From Adhaeribacter swui (lineage in GTDB: Bacteria > Bacteroidota > Bacteroidia > Cytophagales > Hymenobacteraceae), in assembly GCF_014217805.1 (NCBI RefSeq), contig NZ_CP055156.1, positions 2,176,585 through 2,240,584 on the forward strand: 64,000 nt of DNA. The letters run 5' to 3'. Under the pieces are notes generated by a model. That model did no database searches. It was given only the letters and a program-made list of their open reading frames with translations, and had not been told where the DNA came from. Of the stretch, positions 14,247 through 54,377 are shown one piece after another. A program made the translations under genes and the position numbers. How positions within the stretch are numbered: the first letter of the stretch is position 1; the number at the start of each line of letters is the position of its first letter.

Positions 14247-14276
14247 CCAACGCCTTGGTTGGTGTCTTCACCAACC
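14247..14276 (-). repeat. REP-like hairpin element, single copy
   Basis: Read on the minus strand: GGTTGGTGAAGACACCAACC followed by AAGGCGTTGG. An 8-bp stem closes over the tetraloop AAGA. Same core and same tail as the cluster at 24978-25320 and the copy at 54343-54377. Confidence 0.75.
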
Positions 14277-19105: not shown

Positions 19106-19256
19106 CAAGAGTTTTGAGCTGAGTTTTTCAGGCGTCGCGCCTTTTTTATCCTCATCTTCCCCCGCGGCGTGCACCGTATGGGGCTGGAAGTAGCACCCTG
19201 CCAGCCAGGGTTGCTAAGACATCAACGGGCCAAGTCCCTCCGTCTTTCTTGATAAG
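19101..19256 (-). promoter_or_regulatory. SAM-I (S-box) riboswitch upstream of metH
   Basis: On the minus strand the block begins CTTATCAAGA and ends CTCTTGATAAG (helix P1). It contains the conserved S-box pieces GGAGGGACTTGGCCCG, GATG..TTAGCAACC, GGTGCTACTTCCAGC and the expected helices between them. It lies immediately upstream of methionine synthase, the normal target: high S-adenosylmethionine stabilises P1 and shuts off expression. The predicted transcription start is within a few bases of the P1 5' strand. Confidence 0.95.
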
Positions 19257-19261
19257 TTTGG

Positions 19262-23920: not shown

Positions 23921-24844
23921 ATGGATTTTGGTAAAGTACCTTATCTGGAAAAGATAGATTTTAACTTTCCGCCGGAGCCAGCGGCTAATCAGCAGGTGTT
24001 TTCCCGCCATAAACCAGTGGCCTATTTAAAACCGCAACTTTACTTGGGCTGCCCTACCTGGACGAATAAAAGCTGGTTGGGTACGTATTATCCGGCGGGT
24101 TTACCCGCTAAAGATTTTTTGCATTATTACAGCCAACAATTTAATACAATCGAGTTAAATACCACGCACTACCGCATTCCGGACGAAGCCACGGTAACTA
24201 AATGGTGCACCGCCGTTACACCCGATTTTAAATTTTGCCCCAAATGGCCTCAGCAAATCAGCCACGAACAAGAACTGCAAGGGGCCGAAAGCGCTACCGA
24301 AGCATTTTGCACCGCTTTGCTGGCTTTTAAAGAAAATTTGGGCATGTCTTTCCTGCAGTTATCGCCCACTTTTAGCCCCGATAAATTAACGGTATTGGAA
24401 AACTTTTTAACCCGTTTACCCCGCAAAATACCTTTGGCCGTAGAAGTGCGCCACCCCGCGTGGTTTTCTGATAAAACAGCTTTTGAAGAGTTAGCCGCTT
24501 TGCTGGAAGCTTGTGAGGCCAGCACCGTAATTACGGATGTAGCCGGTCGGCGGGATGTGTTACACCTGCGCCTGAGTAGCACTACGGCCTTTGTGCGGTT
24601 TAACGGCTACCGCCACGATGCCGTTGATTATGCCCGCACCGATGCCTGGCTAAAGCAACTCATTGCCTGGCTGGAACAAGGTTTGCAAACCGTTTACTTT
24701 TTTGTGCATTACGAAGATATCTTGCATTCGCCTAAAGTAATCCGGTACATGTTGGATAAACTGGCAGCCGCCACCAACATTCCGGTATCTGCAAATAGCG
24801 CCCGACCTATCCCGCAACCGGTGCAAGGTTCTTTGTTCGATTAA
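23921..24844 (+). CDS. DUF72 (YecE-like) domain protein
   Basis: A 307-residue TIM-barrel protein. Family marks: YLGCPTWTNKSWLGTYYP, FNTIELNTTHYRIPDEATV, FKFCPKWPQQISHE, MSFLQLSPTFSPDKL, PLAVEVRHPAWF, FVRFNGYRH and VYFFVHYEDILHSPK. DUF72 proteins are widespread and biochemically undefined; some are thought to act on nucleic acid or sugars, but I know of no settled function. It stands alone, divergent from rlpA, and is followed by the REP-like cluster. Confidence 0.9.
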   Translation: MDFGKVPYLEKIDFNFPPEPAANQQVFSRHKPVAYLKPQLYLGCPTWTNKSWLGTYYPAGLPAKDFLHYYSQQFNTIELNTTHYRIPDEATVTKWCTAVTPDFKFCPKWPQQISHEQELQGAESATEAFCTALLAFKENLGMSFLQLSPTFSPDKLTVLENFLTRLPRKIPLAVEVRHPAWFSDKTAFEELAALLEACEASTVITDVAGRRDVLHLRLSSTTAFVRFNGYRHDAVDYARTDAWLKQLIAWLEQGLQTVYFFVHYEDILHSPKVIRYMLDKLAAATNIPVSANSARPIPQPVQGSLFD

Positions 24845-24977
24845 AGCAATTTCTCAAAAGTTGTTTACTATTGATTCTAGGGCAACAGTTAGAATCTGGG
24901 TTTCTGGAAATGCAATTTTTTTAAAATTTTGCTTTCCTGAGTTGATTTATTAAACCACAGTATGGCCATTAAGGAAG

Positions 24978-25320
24978 GTGGTTTGTGAAGACACAAACCA
25001 CGGCGTTGTAGTGTTTTCCTCTGTATCGGCTTTGCCAAATTGTGGTAAGGCCATCGTCTTTGTCTGCATAAACCAATTGAAGAAAATAATGTCCTGTTTT
25101 GTATCTGCACAAACCGTTAAAAAAGCAGTTTTATTAAAAAGTGCAGCAGCAATAAAAAATTAAAAAGAGTTTGTTTTCGGTGAACACTCTTTTTCTAACG
25201 ACGTGGTTTATGTTTTCTTAAACTACTTCAAAGTTTTAGCAAAAGAGACAGGGTTACGAAAAACCAAAAAGGAGACTAAACAAGCTTCCAATGCCGTGGT
25301 TTGTGTCTTCACAAAACACT
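24978..25320. repeat. Cluster of REP-like hairpin elements (five copies, mixed orientation)
   Basis: Core GGTTTGTGAAGACACAAACC with tail ACGGCGTTG. The best copy, 24978-25009 (+), has a 10-bp perfect stem (GTGGTTTGTG/CACAAACCAC) and loop AAGA. Copies on the minus strand: 25289-25320 (nearly intact, tail GGCATTGG), 25195-25226, 25085-25115 and 25055-25083 (increasingly decayed). The 558-bp region 24845-25402 has no gene. Confidence 0.75.
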
Positions 25321-25343
25321 CTAAAGCAAAAGAGACAGGGTTA
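25238..25343. repeat. Direct repeat of a terminator-proximal segment
   Basis: AGCAAAAGAGACAGGGTTA occurs at 25238-25256 and again at 25325-25343, offset 87 bp, and similarity continues into the following AAAAGGAG. The second copy leads into the full terminator hairpin; the first has only its left arm. Confidence 0.8.
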
Positions 25344-25352
25344 TGCAAAACA

Positions 25353-25380
25353 AAAAAGGAGTCTGTTTAGACTCCTTTTT
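25353..25380 (-). terminator. Terminator of the M16 peptidase operon
   Basis: AAAAAGGAGTCT (25353-25364), loop GTTT, AGACTCCTTTTT (25369-25380): 12-bp perfect stem with T-run, 23 bp after the stop. Confidence 0.9.
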
Positions 25381-25402: not shown

Positions 25403-27469
25403 TTATAACTTAAATAAATCGTCTTTCAAGTTTTTGTTTACTTCTACACTTTGCACGGTGGTATTGATTAACTGATTCCCGGCCCGCAATTGTGTTAAGT
25501 AAGGTACTTTTATGCCGCTTACTTCGCGGTAATCTCTTACCTCGGTAACCTGGGTGGCATTGCCGAGTTCGGTAGCTGTAACCACTATTTCCCGGATTTT
25601 TAAGCCGGTTTCCAGATCGTAGTATTGTAATAACACCTGGCCGGTGGGTAATTCCAGTTCCAGGCGGTAAGCCCGGCGTCCTTCAATGCGCTCTAATGTG
25701 CTTAAGCTTTTCTTTACGCCAAGGGCGTTGTAGCGCAAAAAGCTGTTCAGGCCGTACTGGATTTTTTGCTCCTGCACTTCTTCAGGGCTCATTACTTTGG
25801 TGCCGTTCTGGCTGATAACTTTTCCTTTATTGCCGTTGATAATGGTTTTCTGAATTTCCAGGTCGCCTACTTTAATAGATTGTACCATTTTGTCGGGTCC
25901 CTTAAAGTACTGCGTATAAGATAAATTAGCACCCGACGAAGAAATAGTGCTCCGCACCGTTAAATCTTTTACTTTATCCAGATTGGCCCGGCCACCTACG
26001 GCTTGTATGTAGTTATCCAGTACTTTGTCGGCAGTGGCTCCGGCCGGTAAAGCCAAAGTAGTGCGTTCGGCTTTGTCGGCGGTGGCAGAGTAATATTCCA
26101 GGGTACCATCTTTATCGAAGCGCTTCAAGCGGTCTTCTATTTGGTCGGCGTTACCAATTACCAGAATAATGGCCTGCTCGGGGTTCACGTATTTCTGGGC
26201 TACCTGCTGAATGGCTTCCGGGGTAACCGCGGCCACTTTTTTCAAATAATCGCGGTAATAATCTTTGGGTAGATTATAGCGGGCCGTATTAATGGCGAAC
26301 AAAGCCACGGTATTCGGGTCTTCGAGGGAACGGGCAAACTCGCCGGTTACAATATTTTTAATTTTTTGCACTTCTTCGGCGGTCGCTTTTTCGGTGCGCA
26401 GCCGATTTAGTTCAAATAAAATTTCCTGTACCGCACTGTCAGTTACGGCATTGCGCACGTTGGTATTGGCCGCAAATTCTCCAATATATTTACTAGCCGA
26501 TAAATCAGAATAAGCGCCGTAGGTGTAGCCGTGTTTTTCGCGCAGGTTTTGCGTGAGCCGTGAGAAACTGCCCCCCAGCATGGTATTTAGAACCCGGGCC
26601 GTAATCGCATCGTCGGTGCCGGGCTTTAAATCGGCTACATTGGCAACAGATATTACACTTTGCACCGCAGCGGGTCGATCCACGATGGCTACCCGGGTGC
26701 CCGTAATTGGGGCTGGTTTAACTATTTCGCTGCGTTTAACGTCGCCTTTTTTCCAGGCGCCAAAGTGTTTTTTTGCCAGCGCTTTAGCTTCTTTCACGGA
26801 TATATCGCCCACAATGGCCAGATATCCTGCATTGGGTTTAAAATAAGTACCGTAATAACCTTGAATATCGGCTAAAGTAATGTTGTTAATGGTTTGCTCC
26901 GAAGGTACTTCGCCGAAGGGGTGATCTTTGCCGTAAAGCAGCGCGCTACGCACCAGGCTCTGAATCACGTTGGGGTTTTCCCGGGAAGCTGCCAGGCCCG
27001 ATAAAGTTTGTTTTTTAATTTTATCTAATTCTTCCTGTTTAAAATCAGGGTTTAGTACTACGTCGGCGGCTAGCTCCATTAATTTACCCACGTGTTTTTT
27101 TAACCCGGCAGCCACAAAGCCGCTGGCCGAAGGTTCTAGGTTGGCTCCGATGTAGTCAATTTCTTCGTCAAGTTTTTCTTTGCTGCGGGTTTTGGTACCG
27201 GTACGTAGCATGGTGCCTGCAATATTTACATAGCCATTTTTATCGCCTTGTACAATAGGATCATTATCCAGAACCAGCGACATGGAAACTACCGGCAATT
27301 TGTGATTTTCTACCACAAAAACTTTCAGGCCGTTTTTCAACTGAAAAGATTGGGCTTCGCCTACCTGAATACTGGGCGCCGGACCCGGCGGTGGTGGAGT
27401 TTGGTTTTGCGCCAAAAGCGCCAAGGGGTAGCAAAGGGTAAGCAGTAAACTATAATAGATACGTTTCAT
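25403..27469 (-). CDS. M16 peptidase, non-catalytic subunit fused to a LolA-like domain
   Basis: A 688-residue exported protein (signal peptide ending ALLAQ). Residues ~30-470 are two M16 (pitrilysin/insulinase) domains, but where the zinc motif HxxEH should be the sequence reads NIAGTMLRTGTKTRSKEKLDE, so it cannot bind zinc there. It retains the partner-subunit substrate residues (NLREKHGYTYGAYS, Arg and Tyr). The last ~190 residues (DNYIQAVGGRANLDKVKDLTV onward, with YFKGPDKMVQ and YYDLETGLKIREIV) resemble the LolA/LolB-like fold that binds hydrophobic ligands. It follows the catalytic M16 gene by 77 bp, so the two should form a heterodimeric periplasmic protease. Confidence 0.92.
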   Translation of the reverse strand: MKRIYYSLLLTLCYPLALLAQNQTPPPPGPAPSIQVGEAQSFQLKNGLKVFVVENHKLPVVSMSLVLDNDPIVQGDKNGYVNIAGTMLRTGTKTRSKEKLDEEIDYIGANLEPSASGFVAAGLKKHVGKLMELAADVVLNPDFKQEELDKIKKQTLSGLAASRENPNVIQSLVRSALLYGKDHPFGEVPSEQTINNITLADIQGYYGTYFKPNAGYLAIVGDISVKEAKALAKKHFGAWKKGDVKRSEIVKPAPITGTRVAIVDRPAAVQSVISVANVADLKPGTDDAITARVLNTMLGGSFSRLTQNLREKHGYTYGAYSDLSASKYIGEFAANTNVRNAVTDSAVQEILFELNRLRTEKATAEEVQKIKNIVTGEFARSLEDPNTVALFAINTARYNLPKDYYRDYLKKVAAVTPEAIQQVAQKYVNPEQAIILVIGNADQIEDRLKRFDKDGTLEYYSATADKAERTTLALPAGATADKVLDNYIQAVGGRANLDKVKDLTVRSTISSSGANLSYTQYFKGPDKMVQSIKVGDLEIQKTIINGNKGKVISQNGTKVMSPEEVQEQKIQYGLNSFLRYNALGVKKSLSTLERIEGRRAYRLELELPTGQVLLQYYDLETGLKIREIVVTATELGNATQVTEVRDYREVSGIKVPYLTQLRAGNQLINTTVQSVEVNKNLKDDLFKL

Positions 27470-54342: not shown

Positions 54343-54377
54343 CTCTCGCCTTTGGGGGTGTCTCCACCACCAAAACG
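54343..54377 (-). repeat. REP-like hairpin element, diverged copy
   Basis: Minus strand TTGGTGGTGGAGACACCCCCAA with tail AGGCGAGAGG, matching the GGTTkGTGAAGACACmAACC..GGCGTTG core of the other copies. In the gene-free stretch 54104-54631. Confidence 0.55.

Follow-up and report, generated by a model that had tools for sequence, protein, structure and literature searches.

A GCC-tagged family of REP-like hairpins and its probable cognate RAYT in Adhaeribacter swui

The hairpins that cluster within the window (the whole stretch of 64,000 nucleotides analysed here) belong to a family of short, tagged palindromes, here type A, that is dispersed through the Adhaeribacter swui genome. We consider it very likely that this is a GCC-tagged REP family, made up of non-autonomous single-stranded DNA elements that a dedicated RAYT, with a single gene located between two inverted REPs, copies or moves in trans. 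A first-pass annotation made from the letters of the window alone had called the cluster REP-like, and that identity stands: the elements are short tagged palindromes, they are dispersed and intergenic, they lie partly in inverted clusters, and their structure is kept through compensatory change.

By analogy with the E. coli RAYT and with IS200/IS605 elements, the enzyme would most likely bind the folded hairpin in single-stranded DNA, for example on the lagging-strand template, for which it may have a preference. It would most likely read the GCC foot as a guide and the stem as an identity mark, and cut and rejoin the DNA beside the hairpin via a single tyrosine; the mode of insertion is presumed from the same two systems. 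Copies would settle between genes and outlast the enzyme, and once placed they may act passively on transcripts.

Repeat copies in the window and across the genome

We scored the copies in the window with a covariance model trained on 30 copies of the hairpin taken from the genome (Table 1). The cluster lies between two convergent reading frames (23921-24844, +; 25403-27469, -), and GTGGTTTGTGAAGACACAAACCACGGCGTTG at 24978-25008 has an inverted copy at 25289-25319 that is 94% complementary to it. At least five copies, in both orientations and in different states of decay, had been counted here from the letters alone. The orientations and the decay are borne out by two near-intact inverted copies and two decayed ones within 24970-25327, but the covariance model recovers four copies and the fifth is recognised by eye only. 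The model also finds the single relative that had been placed near 14247, whereas the relative proposed at 54343-54377 has a GCC foot and pairs at nine of ten positions by eye and is absent from the model matches at E<=5 in the window scan. Because a 40-nt direct repeat adjoins two of the REP copies, the arrangement suggests that the cluster grew partly by local tandem duplication of REP plus flank. Within the window alone the excess of the core over chance is modest, with four matches to the 10-nt core at one mismatch versus 1.4 expected, a count that 1 of 100 shuffles reaches. Rfam at gathering thresholds returned no family for the hairpin in the window; its sole match there is a SAM riboswitch at 19149-19258 (-, 69 bits).

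Table 1. Type-A copies, possible relatives and adjoining direct repeats in the window
Feature	Position	Strand	Score or basis
REP copy, near intact (GCC foot, 10-bp stem, TCTT loop)	24970..25009	-	48.7 bits
Possible fifth copy, strongly decayed	25049..25074	-	by eye only; missed by covariance model
REP copy, decayed	25086..25125	+	14.5 bits, E 0.03 in 82 kb
REP copy, decayed	25195..25234	+	20.8 bits
40-nt direct repeat, copy 1, 3' of a REP	25238..25277	+	90% identity to copy 2
REP copy, near intact, inverted relative to 24970..25009	25288..25327	+	47.4 bits
40-nt direct repeat, copy 2	25325..25364	+	pairs with 25238..25277
Lone REP copy, stem variant TTGGTG/CACCAA	14247..14286	+	26.9 bits
Possible diverged relative (GCC foot, TCTC loop)	54348..54374	+	one-mismatch core match; 9/10 pairs by eye

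The genome-wide search that the first-pass annotation had proposed shows the core to be commoner than chance, with 59 matches to the 16-nt core at up to two mismatches in the 6.2-Mb genome (G000) versus two for a reversed control. The covariance model returned at least 68 matches at E<=1 and 55 at E<=0.001, in a scan that scored 150 of 2041 candidates and may therefore miss weak copies. Subtracting one second-strand match on the same palindrome leaves the 67 copies analysed below.

On the element strand, which we assigned as the strand with 5'-GCC, a 10-bp stem and a TCTT loop, type A reads 5'-(T/C)GCC, NNNG TTTGTG, TCTT, CACAAA CNNN, often followed by TTT, and there is little conservation beyond about 35 nt among 30 aligned genome copies. 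These 30 were chosen by an exact or near-exact core, and this selection accounts for part of the constancy of the inner stem; the outer stem pairs, which it leaves unaffected, covary in the same alignment. Across the 67 copies, pairing holds in 91.5% of stem cells and both sides have changed in 100 cells, against 38-43% and 13-28 cells, respectively, in a control in which the partner was slid by 1-2 columns, and the compensating stem changes reported from the window are thereby upheld. Inner stem variants include TTGGTG/CACCAA and GTTGTG/CACAAC. Two finer points of the earlier description have to be corrected: the loop given as a fixed AAGA, which is TCTT on the element strand, occurs in that form in 53 of 67 copies and is not strictly constant, and the GGCGTTG tail is conserved as GGC only (GCC on the other strand, at the foot of 58 of the 67 copies). 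In 54 of 67 the foot is TGCC (36) or CGCC (18), which is not the GT[AG]G or CGTC tag of the known REP super-families. Type A otherwise has what is looked for in a REP, namely a palindrome of 20-40 nt, many intergenic copies and a short unpaired tag at the 5' foot.

With gene calls taken from a simple coding-score gene finder, 65 of the 67 copies are intergenic, and the other two lie inside one weak reading frame of 67 aa. The intergenic copies are spread over 48 regions, 26 of them tandem, 16 convergent and 6 divergent; the difference between convergent and divergent regions (16 vs 6) is not significant (p 0.052). At least two copies occur in 12 of the 48 regions, and nine of these 12 hold an inverted pair, the clustering expected of BIME- or REPIN-type repeats. 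A check of gene ends, also suggested in advance, found that 59 copies adjoin a gene 3' end, 29 of them within 100 nt. Relative to that gene 3' end, 41 of the 59 copies and 26 of the 29 are antisense, counts in which the copies of a cluster are not independent.

Partial repeats of the left arm upstream of the copies were also considered and rejected as a feature; although striking to the eye, they occur at 7 of 67 copies, and the control (flanks of other loci) averages 3.4 and reaches 7 at most. As a separate observation, one of the 67 copies lies in G000:C3:3851900-5319500, a stretch of 1.47 Mb or a quarter of the contig (binomial 1.4e-7 for a stretch picked post hoc); the scarcity of copies there may reflect replication geography or a different history.

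Placement of this kind could also be read as that of host RNA elements, terminators or 3'-end stabilisers, whose link to a RAYT would be incidental. The intergenic position of 65 of 67 copies, the transcript-strand bias near gene 3' ends and the compensatory stem changes all fit such a role, as does the persistence of a second repeat, type B, in genomes with no detected RAYT (below). We nevertheless judge it improbable. In the biased orientation the hairpin is followed by the GGC tag and by no U-run, and a terminator-like hairpin (25353-25380) already belongs to the M16 gene next to the window cluster; this hairpin is also found in G003 and G005, where the site is without a REP. Moreover, sister genomes that lack this RAYT type have no type A, and copies bracket RAYT genes far outside the host genus.

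The probable cognate RAYT and the repeats of related genomes

The remark that no RAYT is present here is true for the window, since none of the RAYT or Y1 transposase genes found in the genome falls within it (its reading frames are partly annotated), but the genome has a RAYT that is bracketed by copies. This cognate gene, of 173 codons, lies at G000:C3:1708981-1709499, 0.49 Mb from the window cluster. It is framed by inverted type-A copies at 1708861-1708900 (+) and 1709496-1709535 (-) with their tags outward, and its stop codon almost touches the second of these hairpins. The HxH motif (NHLH; H53 and H55) and the tyrosine (YIHNNP; Y129) are invariant in both of our RAYT alignments, which supplies the HUH motif and the single catalytic tyrosine of a RAYT. 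The first alignment holds 23 sequences, with 7 of 30 family RAYT loci left out (six with short or interrupted frames, plus L133), and the second holds 34, with 12 of 46 sequences left out after a stop had appeared in one of them.

Standard models miss or under-score the gene. NCBIfam NF047646 (REP_Tyr_transpos) matches it at 69.5 bits (E 2.7e-19), below the curated cut-off of 80, and all 34 of its relatives match at E<=0.001, among them one from Arcicella at 73.5 bits. The three genes of the genome picked up by Pfam Y1_Tnp do not include the cognate RAYT, which was recovered only via a search with RAYT-1, a second RAYT of the same genome. Annotation by these models could therefore overlook it.

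By sequence, the sole relative of solved structure at E<=0.1 is the E. coli RAYT 4er8 (E 0.0057). The fold was assessed on a predicted model of the Arcicella relative (pLDDT 96) and not on the protein itself. The top match of this model is 4er8, the E. coli RAYT with its REP hairpin (Foldseek E 1.3e-8), and structure comparison gives Z 14.0 for 4er8 versus 10.4 for the next. Thg1-like enzymes, also among the fold matches at Z 6-8, are taken to reflect a shared common fold.

A fold in common, together with the presence of IS200-type transposase genes (L031 and L032) in the genome, is what would favour reading the hairpins as ends, or small MITE-like relics, of an IS200/IS605 element and not as REPs. 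Such an origin is extremely improbable: the 1.5-kb flanks of L031 and L032 have no type-A match (E<=1), so that the hairpins do not terminate a TnpA-bearing unit, the gene that has copies at its sides is of RAYT type, and the best structural match is the RAYT and not IS608. L032 (G000:C3:1534980-1535318) carries two internal stops, and its stop-free relative L031 lies elsewhere.

The reading as REPs with a dedicated RAYT can be compared with the distribution of both partners among 204 genomes of the host family, which we searched with the type-A core, allowing one mismatch. Copies number 35 in G000, 20 in G004, 16 in G005 and one in G183, and the other 200 genomes have none; the reversed core gives four single matches, and the G183 match is thus at chance level. 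RAYTs at least 77% identical to the cognate RAYT occur in exactly G000, G005 and G004. Type A is hence confined, in numbers, to genomes with the matching RAYT type. The gene is intact in G000, its first codons are apparently out of frame in G005 (L107), and in G004 (L132) it is a 62-residue match in a short frame beside two type-A copies. Dozens of REPs persist in G004 and G005 despite the relic and the apparently frameshifted RAYT, and broken RAYTs in two of the three genomes rich in type A count against any claim of current activity.

RAYT-1 (G000:C3:1878486-1879013) has an open frame and scores above the NCBIfam cut-off. At 78% identity or more it is found in G000, G003, G004, G005 and G006, the same five genomes in which the GCGAGCGTCCTCGCTCG hairpin occurs (37, 63, 28, 53 and 3 copies, respectively); this hairpin is absent from G001, G002 and G007, and its copies adjoin RAYT-1 in G000 and G003. 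In the host, the GCGAGCGTCCTCGCTCG family is itself REP-like, lying at G000:C3:1878252 and 36 other places, often as inverted pairs about 120 nt apart, and it is absent from the window. Since RAYT-1 is present in all three genomes rich in type A and appears sound by its frame and score, it might be asked whether it moved the type-A copies, alone or together with the cognate RAYT. We find this highly improbable, as G003 has RAYT-1 (84%), 63 copies of GCGAGCGTCCTCGCTCG and no type-A RAYT, and shows one weak type-A match; the two systems therefore come apart. In addition, no type-A copy lies within 1.5 kb of RAYT-1, and the 18 kb around it contain one 15-bit match about 6 kb off.

Matches to the type-B core TTGTTGGTG are present in 48 of the 204 genomes, and the reversed pattern has none. 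Counting a match at E<=1e-25 as a RAYT relative, in the two genera that account for most of type B all 21 genomes with a relative have the repeat (median 18 matches), versus 23 of 45 without one (median 1). Family-wide, 24 of the 48 type-B genomes have no RAYT relative at this threshold, and nine of them carry at least 10 copies (G009, G131, G133, G137, G138, G139, G142, G178 and G191). G008 and G135 have type-B copies, and the hairpins at their own RAYTs have another stem. This persistence counts against a tight link between repeat and RAYT and means that copies outlast or outspread the detected enzyme; enzyme loss, RAYTs below the threshold or another spreading agent would explain it.

RAYT loci across Bacteroidota and known systems

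We scanned 110 RAYT loci for hairpins within 600 nt, 30 of them from the host family and 80 named; the latter are the best 80 of 514 confirmed loci and are nearly all Bacteroidota by title, one being labelled Ignavibacteriae. The 110 are not all independent, the same species being present in L207/L124, L182/L116 and L180/L118. At least two like hairpins were found at 85 of the 110 loci, and at 64 of these 85 they form an inverted bracket with feet outward, so that matched pairs exist phylum-wide and bracketing of the RAYT gene by copies extends from type A to related hairpins. At 25 of the 110 no hairpin pair was called by this criterion, and the host's own locus is among these although the covariance model finds both of its copies. 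Restricted to loci with full flanks, like hairpins are present near the gene in 53 of 65 cases, at 1380-2000 nt in 0 of 65 and in shuffled flanks in 1 of 65. The foot of the flank hairpins is CC in 194 of 263 copies (GCC in 128) and lacks CC in 69; the strand was assigned here from the pyrimidine-rich loop, independently of the foot. At L191, the locus labelled Ignavibacteriae, no hairpin pair was called; its RAYT is of the same branch and its flank has GCC GTTGTTGGTG.

RAYT and stem diverge jointly, with a Mantel r of 0.31 between RAYT distance and stem distance (0 of 5000 permutations; 75 distinct loci, one hairpin each), a correlation with which host kinship is confounded. Stem types include GTTGTTGGTG in Rufibacter and Pontibacter (same family as the host, named Hymenobacteraceae by NCBI for Pontibacter; genera by identity of the loci), GTGTCAGGTG in G006 and G007, GTGGTCTGTC in G135, and GGTTCGTG and GGTCTGTG at other RAYT loci. 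One case parts RAYT kinship from host kinship: among the best 80 of 514 loci, the nearest RAYT (63%) is that of Arcicella rosea, of a different family (Flectobacillaceae), and its locus has two type-A stems (TTTGTG-TCTT-CACAAA) together with two one-pair variants (TTCGTG), whereas G006 and G007, of the same genus as the host and with RAYTs 53-54% identical to its own, have stems different from type A. Within the Arcicella rosea locus, the pair nearest the RAYT is TTCGTG and not type A, which counts against a tight match.

We regard it as an evenly balanced proposition that the tagged REPs of Bacteroidota include a third class, marked by a CC or GCC foot, a 10-bp stem mostly closed by GTG/CAC and a loop of 3-6 nt, and served by a RAYT branch of its own. 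In this class the stem, and not only the tag, would set the pairing of RAYT and repeat, and stems would be re-invented as RAYTs diverge, so that several independent hairpin systems could share one genome.

In kind, the REP/RAYT pair is ordinary. As in the E. coli REP/BIME system with its RAYT (TnpA_REP, 4er8), a tagged hairpin is present in many intergenic copies and inverted clusters, and a RAYT gene of the same protein fold is framed by copies. Unlike E. coli REPs, which carry GTAG, type A carries GCC, and the hairpins here have a 10-bp stem without a bulge, a 4-nt loop and stem turnover between lineages. The GTAG- and CGTC-tagged super-families outlined by Di Nocera 2013 (PMC3733652) resemble type A in being palindromes with a conserved unpaired motif at one end that lie mostly downstream of genes, and differ from it in the tag, which for type A falls outside both super-families as outlined there.

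In the outline given by Quentin 2018 (PMC6006769), TnpA_REP subclass 2.6, or RAYT group 5, occurs in Bacteroidetes, and its flanks carry 'atypical secondary structures' that lack GT[AG]G, are called weaker there and have copies elsewhere in the genome. By motifs (NH[LIV]H, WQ, YIH[QN]NP) and phylum the RAYTs studied here agree with subclass 2.6, as they do in length and in flank structures that lack GT[AG]G. That account, as outlined, is without a consensus, whereas the present analysis measures the foot, the stem length, the loop and the joint divergence; table S1 of the same paper may list some of these hairpins. PMC6006769 also describes IS200/IS605 ends as a hairpin with guide bases 5' of the foot, served by an HUH tyrosine enzyme. 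Type A is like these elements (IS608, ISDra2) in the 5' foot bases and the enzyme, and unlike them in consisting of dispersed single hairpins, with no element seen to move as a unit. Supplements and subscription papers aside, the RAYT/REP literature on Bacteroidota and on the genera of the family (PMC12306157 included) describes, in its accessible text, no CC- or GCC-tagged REP family.

Now that tag, stem length and loop are defined and RAYT-hairpin pairs are available by the dozen, the choice of repeat by a RAYT becomes experimentally tractable by swaps. The family also provides a possible origin for intergenic hairpins of these genomes that might otherwise pass for regulatory RNA.

Empty and shared sites

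Sites were compared between species as intergenic stretches and not to base-level junctions. The window site is free of copies in G003 and G005, where the intergenic stretch is short, and holds a single copy in G004. At site 1645266 the intergenic stretch of G000 measures about 136 nt and contains the REP, against 29-42 nt without it in G001, G003, G005 and G006; another insertion is present in G004. No clean empty-site comparison was obtained for site 3622436. A larger inverted repeat, GCACTTTCG ... CGAAAGTGC (L008, about 1471-1545), encloses the REP at site 1645266 and was not seen in the sister species' empty stretches; the moved unit may therefore exceed the hairpin. Flanks homologous to G000 REP sites were clear at 10 of 27 G004 loci and found at 12 of 18 G005 loci. 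Many sites are thus common to the species, and much of the type-A family is inherited and not recently moved.
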